Positions 1,273 to 34,641 of a stretch of 54,903 nt of DNA are shown here, piece after piece. How positions within the stretch are numbered: the stretch's first letter is position 1; each line of letters opens with the position of its first letter. The notes beneath the pieces are model-generated. The model saw only the letters and a program-made list of their open reading frames with translations. It did no database searches and was not told the origin of the DNA. This stretch comes from Clostridia bacterium DTU030 (GTDB lineage Bacteria; Bacillota; DTU030): positions 4,284 to 59,186 of the forward strand of contig LFSN01000056.1 of the NCBI GenBank assembly GCA_001513125.1, given 5' to 3'. A program made the position numbers and the translations under genes.

Positions 1273-3522
1273 TTATTCCGTTCCTGCTTTTAACGCCTCG
1301 CTCATGGAAACTGTCTCCACATTCCTTGCGCACAGCAGCTTGCTAAACTGGAAGGTCAACATAATAGCGGCAAAGGATACTGCCACATAAAGGGGGCTGA
1401 CTATAGGTGGTAAGGTTAGATTTATCATATTGCCGAGATAGCCATAGAGTGCTCCCATTGATGCTGCCGCAATGGGAACAGCGATTATAAATCCGGTCAC
1501 TATAACAAAGGTGGAGCTGTCAAGAATCAGGGACCGGATTTCCCGCCGCCTGTAACCAAATACCTTGAAAAGGGAGATGGTGTTCCTGTTTTCCTCGATA
1601 ATCAATATTGTTACCAGATAGATAATAATCATGGCCACAATACTGGAGACTATTGTCAGCAACACTACCATAGAAATCGTCTGTCCGAAAAATTCATCCA
1701 TTGCCTCAGGCAACTCACCCATAGTTTTGGTTCCGGCCAGCTTTTCTCCGGGAATGTCAAGCTTTTCTGTACTGAAAAGGCCAATATAGCTGTTTTCCGG
1801 GAAGCCCATTATTTCATTAAACTCCCTGATAGGCACAAATATAAACTGCTCGATGTAGGAATCGGCAACTGCATCTATCTTAAAGGAGTAAGGCTTCCCA
1901 TCCTCTTTGTTGATGAAGGTTACTGTATCTCCGGCTTTAATGTTCAGACGCCGGGCTAAAGACCTGGTAATGTTGGTTTGATTGTTGGGAAGAAGATTTC
2001 CTTTCCTGTCTTTCAAAGTCACAAGTGCTGCATCCGGCTCTATCCCGGTTATATAAAACTCAATATCTTCCTTGTCTTCGGGATAAAACCTCCCTGCATT
2101 AAAAACCTCTGCCCCTTCCGGCGCCTCCCCCACTTGCAATTCCCGGAAGGAATATTCGTATTCAAACTGGTAGACATCAAAAGTCTTAAACACATGGTTA
2201 AAAGAGTTCAACATAGTAAAACCAAAGAGCATCAAGACCGAGGCACTGGTGACACCCAAAAAGAGAAACACAAGACGTGGAATGCTTCTTAGCTGTTCCC
2301 GCAGTTTAAATTTGGTACTGAACTTAAACCTATCCAGTTTGAGGGACCGCTCCAAAGGGTTAACCTTGGTTCTCTGCCGGTCTCCTTTCATCAGTTCCGC
2401 CGGAGAACGTTTCAGTTCAGAGTGGATAACCAGATAGCTGCTGAGGCCCAAGAATAACCCGGGCGTCAGTATGCCGATTAATACATTGAAAAAGCTGATC
2501 TCAATACCTGGTACGGGAACATTGTAGTAGGAAGTCAGCGCCTTGAGCATTGGCTCTATAGATGGTAGTGCCAGAACAGTTCCTATCAGCCCGCCCACCA
2601 AAGCCAGCAGCAAGGGAATAGCCATATAGTGGACCAATAATTCCCGCCGCCGGTAACCCTGGGCAGAAAGGGTACCGATAATAACCCCTTCCCGGCGGAT
2701 CAGCCGCCAGAACATGATGCCGATAATTAAACAGGACAAAAGAAACATTGCGACCGGTAAGGGCACACTCATGGTCTGCATCCCGGTGATAGATGCCCAA
2801 ACTAACCTTGCCCGTCTATTATTCATAATGTCAACCCAATCAGAGACAGTAATACCTTCTGCCTGCAGATACTCCCGCAATTGCAGCGCCTGGGTATTTA
2901 GGCTCTGGGTCCTATCATTAAACCTGACGGAATAAATCCGCTCATATCCACCTATATTGACAAAGGCCTCCCGTTCTATAACACCCACACCGAATTCGGT
3001 AGGCGAATAGATTATGTCATTGATGTTTTTTAAGGGATAAATATAATGGGGCAGGGATACAAAACCCACCACAGTAAAGGTTTTGCCCGCCACCGCTATT
3101 TGACTTCCAAGAGAATAGCCATTGGCTCCTGCAAAGGCAGGATCAAGGAGTATTTCACCCGGCCCGGAAAGGGGCCGCCCTTCTGTAACAGCTGGGATAT
3201 TCAGTTTTTCTGTTTTGCTGAGGAGCCTGAGGGTAAGGGTATCGGTAAGGTCGGCATCAAAACTCAGGTAATCCTCAATAATAGCATTGGCCGCTTCCTC
3301 CATCTCTTTATAATCAGGAATAGCCCTGTCCGTCCTAAAGGATAGATCTTCCTGCCTGTGCTCTTCTGTAAAGGTTGTAACCAAACTGGCAAGATTTTGG
3401 GAAAGACCGGCAGCCGCCACAAAGGTGTAGCTCCCCAGGATAATAAGGATAAGAATTGCAAGGTAACGCAATTTGTTTTCTTTCAACATCCGTAAAACTC
3501 TTCTCTGCAGAACCATCACCAC
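1273..3522 (-). CDS. ABC transporter permease, FtsX/MacB type
   Basis: A 749-aa membrane protein that pairs with the ATPase encoded just upstream. It has an N-terminal membrane segment (about 15-40), an extracellular domain, and a first FtsX-like block of three membrane segments (about 255-370). A further segment sits near 410-435, then a second extracellular domain, and a C-terminal FtsX block (about 620-740). This duplicated layout is typical of MacB/YtrF-like permeases that export peptides, lipids or drugs, or that sense cell-envelope stress. The GTG start at 3522 overlaps the ATPase stop. An in-frame ATG at 3516 also fits the AAGGA upstream, so the start is uncertain by two codons. The substrate cannot be told from sequence. 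It is the last gene of the tetR-ATPase-permease operon. Confidence 0.85.
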   Translation of the reverse strand: MVMVLQRRVLRMLKENKLRYLAILILIILGSYTFVAAAGLSQNLASLVTTFTEEHRQEDLSFRTDRAIPDYKEMEEAANAIIEDYLSFDADLTDTLTLRLLSKTEKLNIPAVTEGRPLSGPGEILLDPAFAGANGYSLGSQIAVAGKTFTVVGFVSLPHYIYPLKNINDIIYSPTEFGVGVIEREAFVNIGGYERIYSVRFNDRTQSLNTQALQLREYLQAEGITVSDWVDIMNNRRARLVWASITGMQTMSVPLPVAMFLLSCLIIGIMFWRLIRREGVIIGTLSAQGYRRRELLVHYMAIPLLLALVGGLIGTVLALPSIEPMLKALTSYYNVPVPGIEISFFNVLIGILTPGLFLGLSSYLVIHSELKRSPAELMKGDRQRTKVNPLERSLKLDRFKFSTKFKLREQLRSIPRLVFLFLGVTSASVLMLFGFTMLNSFNHVFKTFDVYQFEYEYSFRELQVGEAPEGAEVFNAGRFYPEDKEDIEFYITGIEPDAALVTLKDRKGNLLPNNQTNITRSLARRLNIKAGDTVTFINKEDGKPYSFKIDAVADSYIEQFIFVPIREFNEIMGFPENSYIGLFSTEKLDIPGEKLAGTKTMGELPEAMDEFFGQTISMVVLLTIVSSIVAMIIIYLVTILIIEENRNTISLFKVFGYRRREIRSLILDSSTFVIVTGFIIAVPIAAASMGALYGYLGNMINLTLPPIVSPLYVAVSFAAIMLTFQFSKLLCARNVETVSMSEALKAGTE

Positions 3523-4214
3523 TCAATCCTTTCTGCTGGCAGAATCGTCTGATTAACCACCTCATCAACAACGACCCCGCTCCTTAGCCTAAACACCCTG
3601 TTTGCCATGGCAGCAATGGCTGTATTATGGGTAATCATCAATATGGTTGTGTAAAAATCTTTGTTCACCTGTTGCAGGAGCTGCAAGATACTGCGAGAGG
3701 TCTGATAATCCAGGGCCCCCGTCGGCTCATCGCAAAGGAGTAACTTCGGATTTTTAACAATGGCCCTGGCAATGGAGACCCGTTGCTGTTCACCGCCGCT
3801 CAGTTCCCTGGGAAAGCGGTGCTTTTTATCAAGCATATCCACTGCCGCTAATACTTCGTCGACATTCAATGGTGCTTTGCTGATATTGGAAACGACCTCA
3901 ATGTTTTCCCCCACCGTAAGATTGGGAACCAGGTTATAGAACTGGAATATAAAGCCAACATCCCCCCGTCTATATTCCGTCAGCTCATCGTCACTCAAAT
4001 TATTTATCTCGACCCCGTCCACGATAACCCTGCCGCTTTCGGCCCGGTCAACACCTCCTATGATATTCAGCAGGGTGGATTTTCCCGAACCCGATGGACC
4101 CAGGATGACCCCTACTTCCCCCCGGTCCATTGCCATACTGATTCCCCTTAATACTTCATTTCTCACCTCACCGGTTATATAGCCTTTCTTCAGATCCACA
4201 ACCTCAATAAACAT
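3516..4214 (-). CDS. ABC transporter ATP-binding protein (LolD/MacB class)
   Basis: ATPase (232 aa) that energises the FtsX-type permease. It has the Walker A motif GPSGSGKST, the signature [15 protein letters not shown], and Walker [13 protein letters not shown]. The H-loop is in MITHN. A longer reading frame runs 18 codons upstream, but the ATG at 4214 is preceded by AAGGAGGAGC at good spacing. The longer form would also overlap the regulator gene, so I use 4214. The start lies one base past the tetR stop and the stop overlaps the permease start, which points to tight translational coupling of the three genes. The LolD/MacB class usually serves export or defence against envelope-active compounds. 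The substrate is unknown. Confidence 0.92.
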
Positions 4215-22591: not shown

Positions 22592-23560
22592 CTAGACCGG
22601 ATTCCTTTCCTCCAGCCTGCATTCCAGGGGCGGTATGTCCACCAGCCCCTGGATACTCGGTTGCCTGAGGAGACAGCCTTCCGTCCAGCCCAAATGCTGT
22701 ATCTCTACCGTAAGCCAGGGTTTGACCCACAGTACAGGGGAATGCCCCTGGGGGCCGTTGGCAAAGGGCTCCTCGGTGGTTTGTAGCCGCTGCAGCCTTT
22801 CCGTAAGCCGGAACCACCCTTCCTGGGTCAATTTGCCCGTGCCCACCCGTCCCACATAATGGAGGCGCTCCTCGTCATCGTATAAGCCCAGGAGGAGGGA
22901 ATTGACCCTGGGACCGGCTGTGGTAAACCCCCCAACAACGGCTACCAGGTTACGATAGTTCTTTACCTTCAGCCAGTAATCCTTCTTGGCTCCCAGAATG
23001 TAGGGGGAAGTGAGCTGCTTCATCACAATGCCTTCCATGTCCTGTTCCTTGATGGCTGTAAATAAAGCCCTGCCATCCCTATGGCTGGCTACCCTTCGGC
23101 AGTGCCCGCCGGGAATAATGATTTGGGCCAGTATTTCCTCCCTATCCCGGAAAGTCCTTTCCCTGATCCACTCCCCATTATAATACAGAACATCGAAAAT
23201 CATATAGGCAATGGGTATGGTCCTTTGCAGACCTTTAACCCTTTCCAGGCGCCTGATGCCGTCCCTTTTCATAACCCGGGGAAAGGAAGGCCTGCCGTCA
23301 TTTCCCAGGGCGATAACCTCGCCGTCCAGTATTGCCGACGCGGCGGTGCAGTAAGACCTGATGTCGGTTAGTTCCGGATAATGCCAGGTCCGCTCCCTCC
23401 GCCGCCTATTAAATAGCCGGACTTCCCTCCCGTCCCAATAGGTCAATATCCTGACCCCATCCCACTTGACCTGCCCTATCCATTCTTCTCCTGTTGGGAT
23501 GCTGGTACTGGTCTTGGGCTCCATGGGTATAACCGGCTCCACAACCTTCCCTCCCCGCAA
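22592..23560 (-). CDS. ATP-dependent DNA ligase (LigD-ligase-like, stand-alone)
   Basis: A 322-aa nucleotidyltransferase. The adenylated Lys is in motif I (KWDGVR, about residue 28). Motif III is ILDGEVIAL, motif IV EGIVMK and motif V YWLKVKNYR. An OB-fold domain follows (about 215-310, with VGGFTTAGPRVNSLLLGLYD). This is the size and look of the ligase module of bacterial LigD and its stand-alone relatives, which work in non-homologous end joining or base-excision repair. No Ku or primase gene is in the window, so the pathway is unknown. It lies upstream of miaB with a 116-base gap and downstream of the decarboxylase terminator. Confidence 0.88.
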   Translation of the reverse strand: MRGGKVVEPVIPMEPKTSTSIPTGEEWIGQVKWDGVRILTYWDGREVRLFNRRRRERTWHYPELTDIRSYCTAASAILDGEVIALGNDGRPSFPRVMKRDGIRRLERVKGLQRTIPIAYMIFDVLYYNGEWIRERTFRDREEILAQIIIPGGHCRRVASHRDGRALFTAIKEQDMEGIVMKQLTSPYILGAKKDYWLKVKNYRNLVAVVGGFTTAGPRVNSLLLGLYDDEERLHYVGRVGTGKLTQEGWFRLTERLQRLQTTEEPFANGPQGHSPVLWVKPWLTVEIQHLGWTEGCLLRQPSIQGLVDIPPLECRLEERNPV

Positions 23561-25807: not shown

Positions 25808-26944
25808 TTAGTTTAGGGTGGAGATCAACACTCCCGCAGCAATGGCCGAACCAATTACCCCGGCCACATTGGGGCCCATGGCATGCATGAGCAGGAAATT
25901 CTGTGGATTAGCTTTTTGGCCAACAACCTGACTCACCCGGGCAGCCATGGGTACGGCAGAGACCCCGGCAGAACCGATGAGGGGATTGACCTTGCCGCCA
26001 GTCAATTTACACATCAGCTTGCCCATTAATATCCCTGCGGCGGTCCCCCCAGCAAAGGCGGCTAAACCCAAGAGAATTATAAAAATGGTCTGCCAGGTCA
26101 AGAAGGTTTCCGCTTTGGCTGAGGCACCTACCGTAAGGCCGAGGAAAATAGTGATGATATTGATCAGTTCATTTTGGGCTGTCTTAGAGAGCCGCTCCAC
26201 CACTCCCGATTCCCGCAATAGATTCCCCAGCATCAGTGAACCTATCAAGGGCGTTGCATCAGGAAGAAAAAGGCTGATGAGAATAGTTACGATAATTGGG
26301 AATAAGATCTTTTCGGTCTTACTCACCGAGCGCAACTGTTCCATCACTATCTCCCGTTCTTTTTTCGTAGTCAGTGCCATCATAATTGGCGGTTGAATAA
26401 TCGGCACCAGGGCCATATAGGAATAGGCGGCAATAGCAATGGGACCCAGTAATTCCGGAGCAAGAATGGAAGCTGTATAGATGGCCGTCGGCCCGTCAGC
26501 CCCGCCAATTATGCCGATAGCACCAGCCTGGGCGGGAGTAAAACCGAGGAGGAGGGCTCCCAAGAGGGTGGTAAAGATCCCCAATTGGGCCGCTGCACCC
26601 AGCAGGAGGGTCTTGGGATTGGCCAATAGGGGCCCGAAGTCGGTCATGGCACCTATACCCATGAAAATCAAGGGTGGGTATATCCCCAGTTTAACCCCCT
26701 GGTAGAGGTAATAGAGGAGGCCACCCGGTGTCCCATCTGGCCCTGGCGGATCCATTAATCCGGCCAAGGGTATATTGGAAAGAATGACACCGAAGGCAAT
26801 CGGTAGCAGAAGCAAGGGCTCGTATTCCTTAACTATGGCCAGGTACAGGAGCACACAACCAATTATGAGCATTACACCCTCTTGCCAGGTAAGGCTGAAA
26901 AACCCGAGTGATTGTATAAATTCAACTATAGCCTCGGCTAACAT
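25808..26944 (-). CDS. mmdB: Methylmalonyl-CoA decarboxylase, beta subunit (sodium pump)
   Basis: A 378-aa integral membrane protein of the OadB/GcdB/MmdB family with about ten membrane stretches. It decarboxylates carboxybiotin and moves sodium ions outward. The essential Asp is in the membrane motif [10 protein letters not shown] (about residue 150), and the conserved [18 protein letters not shown] region is at the C-terminus. By itself it could belong to oxaloacetate or glutaconyl-CoA decarboxylase. The neighbouring mutase, epimerase and alpha subunit make methylmalonyl-CoA the substrate. It is the last gene of mmdADECB. Confidence 0.93.
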
Positions 26945-26958
26945 GTCTGTGCCCCCCC

Positions 26959-27390
26959 TTATTCGAGGACTACCAGGAGATCGCCGGTGTTTACCGAGGC
27001 CCCCTTTGTTGTGACAATCTCTTTCACAGTACCATCCTGTGGTGCCACAATCTCATTCTCCATCTTCATGGCTTCCAGGATGACCAGCACATCACCGGCG
27101 GCGACGGCATCTCCAGGCTTTACCCTGACATCCAAAATGGTTCCGGGCATTGGTGCCTCTACCTTGATACCACCGGCAGATACCGGCGCGGCCTTGGCAG
27201 CCGGTTCCGGGCTGGTTTTTTCTGCAACTGGCTGAGGTGTAGCAGCCGGCGGCGCCTCCTGTTTAACAGGAGCCGGGGCTGGGGCAGGTGCCGGAGCCGG
27301 TGCCGGCGCGACCGCTACTGGGCCCTGGCCCATTTCTTCCACTTCCACTTCATAAGCAGTACCATTTACTACTATGCGAAATTTTTTCAT
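26959..27390 (-). CDS. mmdC: Methylmalonyl-CoA decarboxylase, gamma subunit (biotin carrier)
   Basis: A 143-aa biotin carrier protein. The C-terminal biotinyl domain (about 73-143) has the biotinylated Lys in EAMKMEN. An Ala/Pro-rich flexible linker (about 28-70, with repeated AP pairs) joins it to a short N-terminal part. It shuttles carboxybiotin between the MmdA carboxyltransferase and MmdB. It lies between mmdE and mmdB, the position it has in the Veillonella mmd operon. Confidence 0.95.
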
Positions 27391-27410
27391 CCTTTGCCTT
27401 CCTCCTTCAT

Positions 27411-27889
27411 TTTTTCCGCAAGGCCAGATTTCCTAGCCAATCTGGCGCTGGTTCATCAGTTCCTGTCTTCCAGCCATACTCCAGGTAGAAAATGGGTACG
27501 GAAACTGCCTGCGAACAACCCTGATCCTGGCGCCCGCCGGTTCTAAATCCCGATAGGCCGCCAGGGCACTGGCTATAACTGCCATCACTTCAGCGGGTAT
27601 CTGGTCAGCCCCTTGACCAGGCTCTCCTATAGTTTGAATTCGAATTCCCTCCATCCTTTTTCTTCCCCCTTAATTTTCCCGCAAGGCCACAGCCCATCAG
27701 TTCCTGTCTTCCAGCCATACTCCAGGCCGAGAACGGGAACGGAAACTGCCTGCGGACAACCCGGAGCCTAACCCCCGCCGGTTCTGCATCCAGATAGGCT
27801 GCCAGGGCACCGGCTATAACTGCCACCAGTTCAGCGGGTATCTGGTCCTTTGTTTCAGCCCCTTGAACAGGTTCCTCCATAGTTTGCAT
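27411..27889. repeat. Tandem duplication creating mmdD 3' end and mmdE
   Basis: Two direct copies of roughly 220-230 bases, about 27411-27639 and 27672-27889. They share long identical blocks (such as around CATCAGTTCCTGTCTTCCAG) and similarity that continues past the stop of mmdE into the spacer (CCGCAAGGCCA). Nucleotide similarity outside the coding frame shows the copies are recent or kept alike by gene conversion. Confidence 0.85.
27433..27654 (-). CDS. mmdE: Methylmalonyl-CoA decarboxylase, epsilon subunit
   Basis: A 73-aa protein that is a near copy of the C-terminal half of MmdD. By eye about 49 of 62 aligned residues are identical, including RVVRRQFP and WSMAGRQELM in both. It has no membrane anchor. 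In Veillonella the epsilon subunit is likewise a small homolog of the delta C-terminus and stabilises the complex (from memory of the family). The start overlaps the end of mmdD by 50 bases, and AAGGGGG lies about 9 bases before the ATG. A later in-frame ATG exists, but the paralogy with MmdD extends upstream of it, which supports the longer form. Confidence 0.8.
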   Translation of the reverse strand: MEGIRIQTIGEPGQGADQIPAEVMAVIASALAAYRDLEPAGARIRVVRRQFPYPFSTWSMAGRQELMNQRQIG

Positions 27890-28080: not shown

Positions 28081-29628
28081 TTAGACAGGAATATTACCGT
28101 GTTTTTTCGCCGGTCTCGTTTCCCTCTTGCTGACCAGCATTTCCAAAGCTGCAATCAAACGGACCCTGGTCTCAGCCGGATCAATGACATCGTCCACATA
28201 ACCCCTGCTGGCAGCTACATAAGGATTGGCAAAGCGCTCCCTGTATTCGGCGATCCTTTCGTCCCGGGTTTTCTGGGGATCGGCACTTTCTTTGATTTCC
28301 TTCCGGAAGATTATGTTGGCTGCCCCCTCTGGTCCCATGACGGCAATTTCCGCATTGGGCCAGGCAAAGACCTGGTCAGCCCCCAGGTCCCGGCTGCACA
28401 TGGCCAGATATGCCCCACCATATGATTTCCGCAAGATAACGGTAAGCTTGGGCACCGTTGCCTCCGAATAGGCATAGAGCATCTTGGCCCCGTGGCGGAT
28501 GATGCCACCATATTCCTGGGCCGTGCCCGGTAAAAATCCGGGTACATCGACCAGGTTCACCAGAGGAATATTGAAGGCATCGCAAAATCTTATGAAGCGG
28601 GCAGCCTTGTCGGAAGCATTGATATCAAGACATCCAGCCAGGATCTTAGGCTGATTGGCGACAATGCCAATTGTCCTTCCGTTCAGACGAGCAAAACCGA
28701 TGACAATGTTCTGGGCGTAGTAGGGCTGTACCTCCATGAAATCCCCCCGGTCCACGATCCTGGTGATAATATCGCGGACGTCATAGGCCCGGTTGGGTTC
28801 CGGTGGGACAATCTCCCGCAAGGACTCATCCATGCGGCCAGGGTCGTCCCCCGTTTCCACCAGGGGTGGATCCTGCAGGTTATTGTCGGGCAAGAATGAC
28901 AGCAGGCGCCGGATGGCCTCCAGGCATTCCTCTTCATTTCTGGCCTTAAAATGGGCTACCCCACTGGTCGCGTTGTGGGTCATGGCGCCACCGAGTTCCT
29001 CGGGAGTTACTTCCTCCCCTGTCACCGCCTTGATAACCTCGGGTCCGGTGATAAACATGTAGCTTGTGCCTTCAACCATAAAGACAAAATCGGTTAGAGC
29101 CGGTGAGTAAACGGCACCTCCGGCACAGGGGCCCATAATAACCGAGATTTGGGGAATTACACCGGAAGCGATGGTATTGCGGTAAAAGATTTGGCCGTAA
29201 CCACTGAGGGCGTCGACTCCTTCCTGGATCCGCGCCCCGCCGGAATCATTGATACCAATAAGCGGGACTCCGGTTTTCAGGGCCAGATCCATGATCTTGC
29301 AGATCTTGCGGGCGTGCATTTCCCCCAGGGAGCCCCCCATGACGGTAAAATCCTGGGCAAAGACGTATACAGTGCGTCCATTGATGGTGCCGTAGCCGGT
29401 AACTACCCCTTCACCCGGGGCTTCCACCTCATCCATGCCAAAATCGGTGCAGCGGTGCCGGACAAAGGCGTCCAATTCGACAAAGCTGTCGGGATCCAGG
29501 AGCTTTGCTATCCGCTCCCTGGCCGTCATCTTTCCCGCCTTATGCTGTCTTTCAATCCTTTTTTCTCCACCGCCAGCAGAAATCTTTTCCTTCCGCCGGA
29601 ATAGTTCCTCTAGGAATGCCCCTGACAT
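28081..29628 (-). CDS. mmdA: Methylmalonyl-CoA decarboxylase, alpha subunit (carboxyltransferase)
   Basis: A 515-aa carboxyltransferase of the PccB/MmdA family, which moves the carboxyl group from methylmalonyl-CoA to biotin on MmdC. Both crotonase-like halves are present. The N-terminal half has [12 protein letters not shown] and [15 protein letters not shown], with [12 protein letters not shown]. The C-terminal half has [26 protein letters not shown] and [16 protein letters not shown]. Length is as expected. It leads the mmdADECB operon behind its own promoter. Propionyl-CoA carboxylase beta is the main alternative, but no biotin carboxylase is nearby, whereas the membrane subunits are. Confidence 0.94.
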
Positions 29629-29710: not shown

Positions 29711-30118
29711 CTAGTCATCCCGTTGGCACAGCTCAAGGAGTACACCGCCGGTGCTTTTGGGATGGAGGAAAGCTATCTTTGCCCCCCCTGCTCCCAGCCG
29801 CGGTGTCTCATCTATGAGCCGAATACCAGCCGCCTTAGCCTCTTCCAGCGCCTTTTCCAGGTTGTCAACCCGGAAGGTAATATGGTGTATTCCTTCCCCC
29901 CTTTTTGCAATAAATTTTGCCACTGGACTATCGTCAGTGGTTGGCTCCAAAAGCTCCACTTTGCTCTCACCCACTGGAATAAAGGCCACCTTAACCTTCT
30001 GATCGGGAACCTCCTCCACACCCGTAACCTCCAACTGCAAAATGTCCCGGTACAGTTTCAGAGCTTCCTCGAGATCTTTTACGGCAATGCCAATATGATC
30101 GACCTTGCTGATCTTCAT
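29711..30118 (-). CDS. mce: Methylmalonyl-CoA epimerase
   Basis: A 135-aa protein of the vicinal oxygen chelate fold that interconverts the R and S forms of methylmalonyl-CoA. It links the mutase (R) to the decarboxylase (S). Metal ligands are expected in VDHIGIAV (His), GIHHITFRV (His) and LLELC (Glu). [12 protein letters not shown] is also typical. The frame is open 40 codons further, but AAAGGAGGT precedes the ATG at 30118 and that start gives the usual length. The ATG overlaps the meaB stop (ATGA). Confidence 0.95.
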
Positions 30119-31071
30119 GGTGTACCTCCTTTCCCATTCCCGGTGATGGGTTGCAAAATTTCCCTGGCCGCGGCAAAGGGGTCCTTCTCCCGGGCGGCCA
30201 CCTTCTCCAGCAATTGTTCCAGTCCCCCCGCCGACCAAAGGTCCAGCAAGCGGGCTTTGATTTCCTCCTCCACAATGGCCATAATCTCAGTCCTATACCT
30301 TTCCCGGCGGCGTACTTCCAGCTGGCCATTTTGGCGCAGATGCTGTATGTGTCCTTCGATACCTTCTACAACGGCATCAATGCCCTTATTGGTTGTGGCA
30401 ATGGTAGAATACACAGGGGGCCGCCAGGCAGCCTCCCTATTGCTCAGATCCAGCATCATCTCCAGTTCTGCCACCACCCGGTCGGCACCCTGGCGATCTG
30501 CCTTGTTGACGACGAAAATATCTGCAATCTCTAAAATACCGGCTTTAATGGTCTGGATATCATCCCCCAAACCGGGAACCAGAACAACCAGGGTTGTATC
30601 GGCCGTTTTTACAATATCAACCTCCGACTGGCCGACTCCCACCGTTTCGACGAAAATATAGTCCTTGCCTGCCGCGTCCAATATTCTAATAACATTGTGG
30701 GTAGCCTTGGCCAGGCCGCCCAGGCTTCCCCTGGTGCCCATACTGCGGATGAACACCCCCGGATCCGTTGCCAGCTCCTGCATCCGAATCCTATCGCCCA
30801 ATATAGCCCCTCCTGTGAAGGGACTGGTGGGATCAACGGCGATAATTCCCACCGTCTTCCCCAGCTGCCGCAGTTTTTTTGCCAACCGGCCTACCAGGGT
30901 GCTTTTTCCCGCCCCCGGTGGGCCGGTAATTCCCACGACCAGGGCCTTCCCCGTATGGGGGTAGAGGGCCTGTAAGTCGGAAATGGCCTCCTGGGGGCGG
31001 TTTTCTACCATTGTAATCAGGCGGGCCAGGGCCCGTTGATCCCCTGCCAGAATACCTTCAGCCAGTGTCAC
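30115..31071 (-). CDS. meaB: Methylmalonyl-CoA mutase chaperone, MeaB/ArgK GTPase
   Basis: A G3E-family GTPase (about 318 aa) that loads and protects the B12 cofactor of methylmalonyl-CoA mutase. P-loop GPPGAGKST, switch region [24 protein letters not shown] and the base motif NKAD are all present. A TTG at 31092 is in frame, but the GTG at 31071 has GGTGGTG at 5 bases and gives the familiar [12 protein letters not shown]-terminus, so I chose it. It lies directly downstream of the B12-binding subunit and overlaps mce by 4 bases. Confidence 0.94.
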
Positions 31072-31097
31072 ATTTTCACCACCCGTCTGCAATGGGA

Positions 31098-31499
31098 CTA
31101 GCTCTGCTGTGCACGCTCCTTAATATATTCGATTACCGCCTGGGTAGTAGTACCGGGGGTAAAGATCTCGGCAATACCCGCTTCCTTCAAAGCCGGTATA
31201 TCATCTTCCGGGATAATGCCCCCACCGATAACAAGTATATCCTCGGCTCCCTTTTCCCGCAGCAGCTCCATTACCCGGGGGAAAAGGTGGTTATGGGCTC
31301 CCGAAAGGATGCTCAGGCCGATAACATCCACATCCTCCTGGATGCCAGTTTCCACGATTTGTTCCGGTGTTTGCCGCAAGCCGGTATAAATGACCTCCAT
31401 TCCTGCATCCCGTAGAGCCCGGGCCAGCACCTTGGCCCCCCGGTCATGGCCATCTAGCCCTGGCTTGGCAATCAAAACACGAATGGGTCTATCCGTCAT
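31098..31499 (-). CDS. Methylmalonyl-CoA mutase, B12-binding (small) subunit
   Basis: A 133-aa cobalamin-binding domain. The base-off/His-on motif D-x-H-x-x-G is in [10 protein letters not shown]. The SxL element (LSILSGAH) and the GG (VIGGGI) element of the B12-binding Rossmann fold follow. In this organism the mutase is split into a catalytic and a B12-binding polypeptide, as in archaea and many Clostridia. It follows the large subunit after 61 bases and precedes meaB. Confidence 0.95.
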
Positions 31500-31560
31500 T
31501 AATTTGCGCCTCCTTCCTCCCCCTAAAGCGGCACATCTACATGGCCTGCTAATAATCTAA

Positions 31561-33243
31561 TTAGAATATTACCGAAGCCTCATATTCACCAAAGACTTCC
31601 CTGAGTACGTCACAGATCTCACCCAGGGTAGCGTAGGCCTTCACTGCCTCAATAATCGGTGGCAGTAGATTGGCATCGGATTGGGCCGTTTCCTTCAGGC
31701 GCTGCAAGGCCCCTTCCACAGCCCCTTGATCCCTGGTTGCCCTGAGTTGGGATAGTTTTTCCTTCTGATAGCGGCCCACAGCCGGGTCTACCTTGAGGAG
31801 GTCCTTGGGTGTCTCTTCCTCCTCCAGCTGGAACTTGTTCACACCAACTACTATTCTCTCCTCGGCTTCTACCGCCTTTTGATATTCGTAGGCACTCTCC
31901 TGGATTTCCCGCTGCATGAAACCCTGTTCGATGGCCTTCACGGCACCACCCAGAGCATCGATCTTCTCGATATACTCCATGGCCCTCTCCTCGATCTGAT
32001 TGGTCAAACTTTCCACATAATAGGAGCCGGCCAGGGGGTCAATGGTATTGGCCACCCCGCTCTCGTGGGCGATAATCTGCTGTGTCCGTAGGGCAATCCG
32101 GACCGAATCTTCACTGGGCAGGGCCAGGGCTTCATCCCGGGAATTGGTGTGCAGGGACTGGGTGCCGCCCAGCACTGCCGCCAGAGCCTGTAGTGTTACC
32201 CTGACCACATTATTGTCGGGCTGCTGGGCCGTCAAAGCACAGCCGGCCGTCTGGGTATGGAACCTGAGCATGAGGGACTTGGGATGCTTGGCCCCAAAGC
32301 GTTCCTTCATAATCCGGGCCCACAGCCGCCGGGCAGCCCGGAACTTGGCTACCTCCTCCAACAGATCCATGTGGGCGTTGAAGAAGAAGGAAAGGCGAGG
32401 GGCAAATTTATCGACATCAAGTCCTGCTTTGACAGCCGCATCCACATAGGCAATCCCGTTGGCCAGGGTAAAGGCAACCTCCTGCACCGCCGTACACCCG
32501 GCCTCCCGGATGTGATAACCACTGATACTAATGGTGTTCCAATTGGGAAGATTTGCGGAACAATAGGCAAAGGTGTCAGTGATCAGGCGCATGCTGGGTT
32601 GGGGTGGAAAAATGTAGGTACCCCTGGCCACATATTCCTTCAAAATATCGTTTTGTATTGTCCCCGACAGCTTCTCAGGAGCTACTCCCTGCTTTTCGGC
32701 AACGGCAATATACATTGCCAGGAGGATGGCCGCCGGCGCATTTATGGTCATGGAAGTACTTACTTTGTCCAAAGGTATGCCGGCAAAAAGGGTTTCCATA
32801 TCCTGCAGGGAGTCGATGGCCACGCCAACCTTCCCCACTTCCCCTTCGGCCAAGGGGTGATCGGAATCCAGGCCGATTTGTGTAGGAAGGTCAAAGGCAA
32901 CACTTAAACCAGTTTGGCCTTGTTCCAAAAGGTATTTATAGCGCTCGTTTGATTCCTCGGCTGTACCAAAGCCGGCATACTGGCGCATGGTCCAGAGACG
33001 GCCCCGGTACATGGTAGGCTGAATACCCCGGGTATAGGGGTATTCGCCAGGCATGCCCTGATCCCTTTCGTAATCCTGATCGGCCACATCAAGAGGCGTG
33101 TAGACCCGTTGGACGGGTAGGCCCGAAAGGGTGCGGAACTCTTCTTTCCGCTCAGGGAAACGATCTATAACTTTCTTGAGGGTAGTTTCTTCCCACTTAC
33201 GCTTTTTCTCCCTGATGCTGTCCACCTGCTCCTTGACAAACAT
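31561..33243 (-). CDS. Methylmalonyl-CoA mutase, catalytic (large) subunit
   Basis: A 560-aa TIM-barrel subunit that rearranges succinyl-CoA and R-methylmalonyl-CoA by a radical mechanism. Substrate-specific residues fit the methylmalonyl rather than isobutyryl type: Tyr in [12 protein letters not shown] and Arg in [13 protein letters not shown]. The active-site His is in [13 protein letters not shown] at 33267 is in frame, but the ATG at 33243 is better placed behind GGGAGG. The start lies 27 bases past korC, so the mutase is transcribed with the oxidoreductase that makes its substrate, succinyl-CoA. Confidence 0.95.
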
Positions 33244-33269
33244 CTCCCCTGGTTTCCTCCCTTCCACAA

Positions 33270-33815
33270 CTATTTTTCCAGCTGCTCCTGCCCCAGCTGA
33301 AAACCGAGGGCCAGGGCTTCCCTATTGAGCTCTTCAGTGCCCTTGGGCACCCTGCTCAATACTGCCTTCTCCAGGGCTTCCCTGCTGACAGCCCCTGTTA
33401 TCGCAACCGTTACTCCCAGGGCAACTATATTGGCTACAATAACCTTGCCCAATTTATCCCGGGCTAATTCGGTAATGGGCAGAGAATAGACCCGGGCCCG
33501 GGTTTCTGGGACCTTCTTCACATAGTAGGAATCGACGATAAGGATACCATCATCCCGGAGGGAGTCGATATATTTGTCACAGGCCTCCTGACTCATGGCC
33601 AGCAGCACAGAAGGTTCCTTAACCTTCGGGTAATCGACGGTGGTGTCGCTTATAATGACCTCTGACTTGCTGGCACCACCCCTGGCCTCCGGTCCGTAGG
33701 ACTGGGTTTGTACAGCCTGCTTTCCCTCTTTTATCGCCGCATCGGCCAGGATTATTCCCGCCGTGATCAGACCCTGTCCCCCAAAGCCGCTCAAGCGAAT
33801 CTCCAACTGAGCCAT
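33270..33815 (-). CDS. korC: 2-oxoglutarate:ferredoxin oxidoreductase, gamma subunit
   Basis: A 181-aa subunit of the 2-oxoacid:ferredoxin oxidoreductase family, with the signature [10 protein letters not shown] at the N-terminus and [15 protein letters not shown]. It completes the CoA-binding site of the complex. It lies 4 bases after korB. Pyruvate or branched-chain 2-oxoacids are alternative substrates, but the neighbouring glutamate dehydrogenase and methylmalonyl-CoA mutase favour 2-oxoglutarate. Confidence 0.92.
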
Positions 33816-33819
33816 ACCA

Positions 33820-34641
33820 TCACTCCCCTTCCAGCATATCGATTATCCGCTGGTACTCTTCAACATACTCGGGTCTATCTCCCCGGTGGAGCTCACCGAT
33901 GACAAATTTGCCCGCCATTTTTTCCGGGGGCAGTTTAGCCGCCGCCTTGACGGGAACTGCATGTTCCTTCTGCCATTTGAGCATGTCAACGGCGTCTCCC
34001 ATCTTGTTCCTGCGGCCGAAATAGGTGGGACAATGGGTAACAACCTCGATGAAGGAGAAACCCTTATGCTCAATTCCCTTGGCAATCAAATCTATGAGCA
34101 TCTGGGTATGGAAGACGGTACCCCTGGCCACATAGGTAGCACCGGCTGCTATCACCAGTTGGCAGAGATCGAAGGGATGATCCACGTTGCCATAGGGGGC
34201 TGTGGTGGCAAAGCGCTTGTGGGGCGTCAGGGGGGAATACTGCCCGCTGGTCATCCCGTAAATATTATTGTTAAAGACCACGGTGGTCAAATCTATATTG
34301 CGCCGGGCAGCATGGATGAGGTGATTCCCGCCGATGGCGGCACAGTCCCCGTCCCCGGTTAAAACTATCACTTCCAGTTCGGGACGGGCCAATTTTACCC
34401 CCGTGGCAAAGGCCAAAGCCCGTCCGTGGGTTGTGTGCAGGGTGTCAAACTTCATATATCCTGGCGCCCGGCTGGAACAGCCGATCCCTGATACTACTGC
34501 GGTCTTAAAGGGATCCAGATCCTGGCGCTGTATTGCCCGGAGCACCGAACCCAGGATAATGCCGTGGCCACACCCTGCACACCAGATATGGGGCAGTTTC
34601 TCCATCCTTGTGTACTTGGTCAACAATTCCTTTACCGCCAT
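33820..34641 (-). CDS. korB: 2-oxoglutarate:ferredoxin oxidoreductase, beta subunit
   Basis: A 273-aa thiamine-diphosphate-binding subunit. WCAGCGHGI near the N-terminus and GDGDCAAIGGNH, followed by NNNIYGMTSGQ, form the ThDP/magnesium motif. It oxidatively decarboxylates the 2-oxoacid to an acyl-CoA and reduces ferredoxin. The start follows korA by one base. The size matches the KorB/OorB type of four-subunit enzymes. Confidence 0.94.
   Translation of the reverse strand: MAVKELLTKYTRMEKLPHIWCAGCGHGIILGSVLRAIQRQDLDPFKTAVVSGIGCSSRAPGYMKFDTLHTTHGRALAFATGVKLARPELEVIVLTGDGDCAAIGGNHLIHAARRNIDLTTVVFNNNIYGMTSGQYSPLTPHKRFATTAPYGNVDHPFDLCQLVIAAGATYVARGTVFHTQMLIDLIAKGIEHKGFSFIEVVTHCPTYFGRRNKMGDAVDMLKWQKEHAVPVKAAAKLPPEKMAGKFVIGELHRGDRPEYVEEYQRIIDMLEGE

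Follow-up and report, generated by a model that had tools for sequence, protein, structure and literature searches.

The methylmalonyl-CoA decarboxylase operon of Clostridia bacterium DTU030 has very probably undergone a real, recent and lineage-specific tandem duplication, which placed an epsilon-like gene, mmdE, between mmdD and mmdC. Duplication is the best explanation because the repeat runs in register across both coding and non-coding DNA, relatives carry single copies, and the dS between the mmdD and mmdE copies (D and E below) is low. One tandem duplication of about 273 bp, after the split from the sequenced sister species, would have taken in the 3' half of mmdD including the stop codon, the adjoining spacer, and the beginning of mmdC (ribosome site, ATG and about five more codons). 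Judging from the register of the repeat, the joint would have set the mmdC translation start in frame before the soluble C-domain of delta, generating a translatable epsilon-like gene in a single step. Deletions of 15 and 7 bp would afterwards have erased the mmdD stop codon and caused a read-on of 29 codons that overlaps the mmdE start, the direction of this change being given by outgroups.

The operon

The window, that is, the whole 54,903-nucleotide stretch of DNA that was analyzed, carries the operon on its minus strand in the order mmdA-mmdD-mmdE-mmdC-mmdB (Table 1). The mmdD product is a member of the OadG/MmdD family and passes the cut-offs of both PF04277 (OAD_gamma; see Table 1) and TIGR01195 (43.2 versus 36.05 bits). 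It consists of an N-terminal transmembrane helix, a linker, a soluble C-domain and a derived tail. The helix and C-domain are those of known delta subunits, whereas the tail of 29 extra C-terminal residues, encoded by former spacer and the 5' end of mmdE, is not. The mmdE product has no transmembrane helix. AlphaFold2 models of MmdE and MmdD, built from three-row alignments, reached mean pLDDT values of 57 and 54, which makes them usable only for the description "helical", and no solved structure matched the C-domain by sequence. An Rfam search found no RNA element, and scans for promoters and terminators stayed near chance level.

Upstream of mmdA, the translations of 29711-33267 resemble a full methylmalonyl-CoA mutase set (epimerase, meaB, and the small and large mutase subunits), and this set is adjoined by what appears from its translation to be a 2-oxoacid oxidoreductase (33270-34641). 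A 322-aa open reading frame elsewhere on the minus strand (22592-23560) resembles, by eye, an ATP-dependent DNA ligase and is a putative member of that family.

Table 1. Coordinates of the operon genes and of the repeat features within the window
Feature	Position	Strand	Basis
mmdA, carboxyltransferase subunit	28081..29628	-	Pfam Carboxyl_trans 730 bits; TIGR01117 954 bits (cut-off 998.8)
mmdD, delta subunit, OadG family, 150 aa	27605..28057	-	ORF; Pfam OAD_gamma 54.5 bits (cut-off 27)
mmdE-like gene encoding only the soluble C-domain (73 aa)	27433..27654	-	ORF; NF047904 15.3 bits (cut-off 65); C-domain tree
mmdC, biotin carrier subunit; probable donor of mmdE leader and start	26959..27390	-	Pfam Biotin_lipoyl 80.4 bits
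mmdB, sodium-translocating beta subunit	25808..26944	-	Pfam OAD_beta 547 bits
Repeat core in mmdD, 51 C-domain codons	27695..27847	-	88% identical to 27454-27606
Repeat core in mmdE, 51 C-domain codons	27454..27606	-	direct-repeat match to mmdD core
Upstream repeat unit (250 bp), from codon 58 of mmdD to roughly codon 6 counted from the copied mmdC start	27637..27886	-	repeat register, from which the exact ends are estimated
Downstream repeat unit (264 bp), comprising mmdE from its codon 7 to the stop, the spacer, and the ribosome site, ATG and codons 2-6 of mmdC	27373..27636	-	exact ends estimated
Novel joint: mmdC-derived codon 6 in frame with mmdD-derived codon 58	27636..27637	-	at most about 2 nt of microhomology
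Leader and start codon of mmdE, copied from those of mmdC (27386-27426)	27650..27689	-	33 of 39 spacer columns identical
Site of the 15-nt and 7-nt losses (old stop) in mmdD relative to the mmdE copy, with GGCTG (27690-27694) between	27689..27695	-	alignment; spacing 241 versus 263
mmdD derived 29-codon tail: former spacer, copied ribosome site, mmdE 5' end in another frame	27608..27694	-	absent from L003, G003 and G004

The direct repeat and its breakpoints

A first-pass annotation of this DNA described the 3' half of mmdD and all of mmdE as direct copies whose similarity continues past the mmdE stop into the spacer, and the alignment bears this out. The two copies share a gapless core of 153 nt at 88% identity with a spacing of 241, and the similarity is extended in register at 27605-27639/27855-27889 (83%, spacing 250), at 27404-27426/27667-27689 (83%, spacing 263) and at 27386-27405/27650-27669 (80%, spacing 264). 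This is the only direct repeat of at least 45 nt in the window, and the chance of such a match is about 1e-56 per placement. Read as transcribed, the repeat begins at codon 58 of mmdD (CAA ACT) and continues through the C-domain, the stop codon and the spacer into the ribosome site, ATG and next few codons of mmdC. The similarity therefore reaches further than had been claimed, to the mmdC ribosome site and start, and the single span of 27411-27889 originally assigned to it is better replaced by the two adjoining units of Table 1, whose limits are approximate. The segment originally copied would have begun at codon 58 of mmdD and ended near codon 6 of mmdC.

From the CAA ACT at 27636 onward, mmdE tracks mmdD in frame, and the mmdE copy has an in-frame deletion of 9 nt. 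The very short stretch shared at the novel joint would fit illegitimate recombination. It also bears on the trivial explanation that the repeat was created when sequences of two strains were joined during assembly. The source is indeed a draft genome, in 144 contigs, but the shared stretch is too short for k-mer joining, the copies differ by 12% and by several indels, which is beyond the usual variation between strains, and both frames remain open with their near-invariant residues kept. An assembly artefact is thus extremely unlikely.

Origin of the mmdE start

The leader and start codon of mmdE appear to be a copy of those of mmdC (Table 1). The mmdE ATG (27652-27654) corresponds to the mmdC ATG (27388-27390), and the MEGIRI that begins MmdE aligns with the MKKFRI that begins MmdC. 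Over the 15 nt that follow the ATG, mmdE has 8 matches to the mmdC gene of its own operon (P 0.017) and 9 to that of the closest sequenced relative, L003 (P 0.004). As a background, 1.6% of the 1153 contexts in the window with a ribosome site and ATG reach 8 matches, which makes the exact end of the repeat within mmdC likely but not established. By copying the mmdC ribosome site, the ATG and about five further codons, the duplication would have supplied mmdE with its start.

Loss of the mmdD stop codon

The first-pass annotation also proposed that short deletions removed the mmdD stop, and this reading has held up: 15 and 7 nt are missing relative to the mmdE copy, and the frame stays open across the mmdE start for another 29 codons (27694 to 27608), so that mmdD ends at 27605 and overlaps mmdE by 50 nt. 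The mmdE copy terminates in NQRQIG followed by a stop, and the deltas of two genomes of the same family (G003 and G004) terminate in HMRQMG and NLRQMG. The RQ(I/M)G-stop end is thus present in mmdE, G003 and G004 and absent from mmdD. Since mmdE and the two outgroup deltas have the same end, it is mmdE that preserves the ancestral C-terminus of delta, and the tail is a derived feature of mmdD. A long tail shared by relatives would have spoken against this history, and none of those examined (L003, G003 and G004) has it.

The mmdD gene of L003 has 125 codons and a normal stop. In that gene (3309-3686), a short insertion directly after the ELM residues shifts the frame of the last codons, which read RINAR instead of RQxG. 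This end of the protein seems to change freely.

Copy number in relatives and age of the duplication

The closest sequenced relative, a member of the same genus (L003, the G001 sequence), has one mmdD directly before mmdC and no mmdE. In G003 and G004, a single mmdD likewise has its normal stop just before mmdC. The contig of a third genome of the genus (G002) ends inside mmdA and is therefore uninformative on copy number. A survey of the class found the domain in 11 of 13 genomes, with one copy in 10 of these 11 and two copies only in the genome of the window; no epsilon was found in L003/G001, G003, G004 or the other class members that have the domain. In a survey of the phylum, 146 of the 399 genomes drawn contained the domain, and among the matches listed only the genome of the window and one other, G118, had two copies side by side. 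One genome in the survey (G048) contains the C-domain region twice, at places far apart and with equal scores, and an in-frame TAA falls within both matches.

Divergence between the copies is low, with a dS of 0.25 and a dN of 0.092. Between the genome of the window and L003, four neighbouring genes (mmdA, meaB, the epimerase gene and mmdC) have dS values of 0.53-0.99, and all 304 ortholog windows (51 codons each) lie above 0.25. Within the repeat segment itself, dS is 0.41 for D against L003 and 0.73 for E against L003, although the D-E value falls below the D-L003 value in only 83% of codon bootstraps. The D-E dN/dS ratio is 0.38 (95% range 0.12-1.08), which falls short of proving purifying selection. 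In a five-sequence tree D and E are weakly grouped, with bootstrap values of 47 for the core and 80 with the spacer, and the AU test rejects no alternative. Sites common to D and E only number 14 in the core (25 with the spacer), as against 10 (11) and 5 (11) for the other pairs. The duplication is taken here to be younger than the split of the two sister species; the single copies in the sister species, G003 and G004 and the low D-E dS uphold the earlier suggestion that it was recent.

Two other histories can be compared with these data. The duplication might predate the split from the L003 species, with L003 having dropped one copy through recombination between the repeats. Tandem repeats collapse easily, and the five-taxon tests leave a grouping of D or E with L003 possible; on the other hand, this history requires an extra loss, places a D-E dS below that of every ortholog window before the species split, and fits poorly with the excess of sites common to D and E. 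It is improbable. The other history was left open by the first-pass annotation, which suggested that epsilon was either newly made or homogenised. Here an old epsilon would have been homogenised with delta by gene conversion that overwrote the spacer as well. The tandem position of the copies and a D-E dS below the species divergence are also what recent conversion would yield. However, the D-E differences are evenly spread, the longest identical run being 32 nt (P 0.20), and there is no conversion tract; a conversion event with mmdD as donor would not explain the mmdC-like leader and start; and relatives have no epsilon to be converted. Gene conversion is accordingly very improbable, and of the two original suggestions only that of a newly made gene is retained.

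Comparison with the Veillonella-type epsilon

The window's mmdE resembles the Veillonella-type MmdE (NF047904) in several ways. Both are small soluble proteins made of the delta C-domain, both are tandem relatives of their own delta, and both genes lie immediately after mmdD and before mmdC; the order in L019, for example, is mmdA-mmdD-mmdE-mmdC, as in the first four genes of the operon described here. The window's mmdE differs in that it scores far under the curated cut-off for NF047904, groups with its own delta and bears a copied mmdC start. In G000, NF047904 matched nothing at E ≤ 0.01. Within the class to which G118 belongs, epsilons above the cut-off are confined to four genomes from a single family (f72), and in every case the C-domain of the neighbouring delta also passes. 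This family is taken to be Veillonella-like because the NF047904 model describes that type. Literature searches found no papers on mmdE.

In a tree of the C-domain, the window's E and D group with L003 (89/89), and the f72 epsilons group with the f72 deltas (96/94). An alignment of only 55 columns underlies the tree, which samples f72 with two epsilons; the epsilons from L081 and L083 were left out, the latter being identical in the domain to that of L082. A topology that unites all epsilons in one clade is rejected (p-AU 0.0007), and the arrangement of delta plus epsilon therefore arose at least twice. Epsilon had been regarded in the first-pass annotation as an old paralog of delta, but common descent with the Veillonella-type epsilon does not apply here: judged by the C-domain sequences, the window's epsilon is independent in origin.

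Possible function of MmdE

Epsilon stabilises the Veillonella complex, where it supplies the MmdA/MmdC assembly with extra copies of a scaffold domain. Stand-alone forms of the same domain occur in another setting. In six loci of a Bacillota genus (f15/g19), namely L008, L055, L057, L063, L064 and L065 (from G025, G142, G243, G266, G108 and G311, respectively), an open frame of 75-100 aa encoding only a soluble C-domain lies between mmdA and mmdC. These proteins share with the window's MmdE the domain, the lack of a membrane helix and the operon slot, but theirs is the sole such domain, whereas in the window it is added to a full delta. Three of the genomes (G025, G108 and G243) have no match to PF03977 (OAD_beta) or PF04277 anywhere, and their system appears to be a relative of the decarboxylase that is soluble and does not pump. 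The presence of the stand-alone domain in genomes without OAD_beta and OAD_gamma argues that it serves the soluble MmdA/MmdC part.

In oxaloacetate decarboxylase, the C-terminal tail of gamma is required for binding of the alpha subunit but not of beta (PMC7274780), and by analogy the delta C-domain would hold the carboxyltransferase MmdA. A passage in PMC11575231, citing Huder and Dimroth 1995, reports delta to be indispensable for the Veillonella complex. If the C-domain serves the soluble part, then a free extra copy without a membrane helix, such as MmdE, would most likely provide additional scaffold domains on MmdA/MmdC.

It is possible, if rather unlikely, that mmdE is instead a functionless by-product heading for decay, a reading that concerns function only and is compatible with the duplication history. 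Relatives do without the gene, the dN/dS range extends beyond 1, and mmdD acquired an accidental tail. Against this, the mmdE frame is still open after 12% divergence and its 9-nt deletion is in frame, the near-invariant W and GR residues are retained, the gene has its own ribosome site, and the Veillonella-type family fixed the same arrangement.

With added scaffolding remaining the preferred function, a broader proposal can be made, although it is doubtful and offered only tentatively. Epsilon may be a repeatable invention, with tandem duplication having separated the C-domain from delta on at least two occasions, in the present case in a single event that captured the ribosome site and start of the downstream gene, and it may divert some of the MmdA/MmdC to a soluble complex that does not pump, as in the beta-less Bacillota. 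The combination of delta with a soluble C-domain epsilon in the same operon slot appears to have arisen independently in two Bacillota lineages. In the lineage described here, a subunit would have been caught at its birth, with its source, the breakpoints, the start signals that it captured and the damage that mmdD, the parent gene, suffered afterwards all still legible at single-base resolution, and the contribution of epsilon to the pump becomes testable by comparing sister species with one copy and with two.
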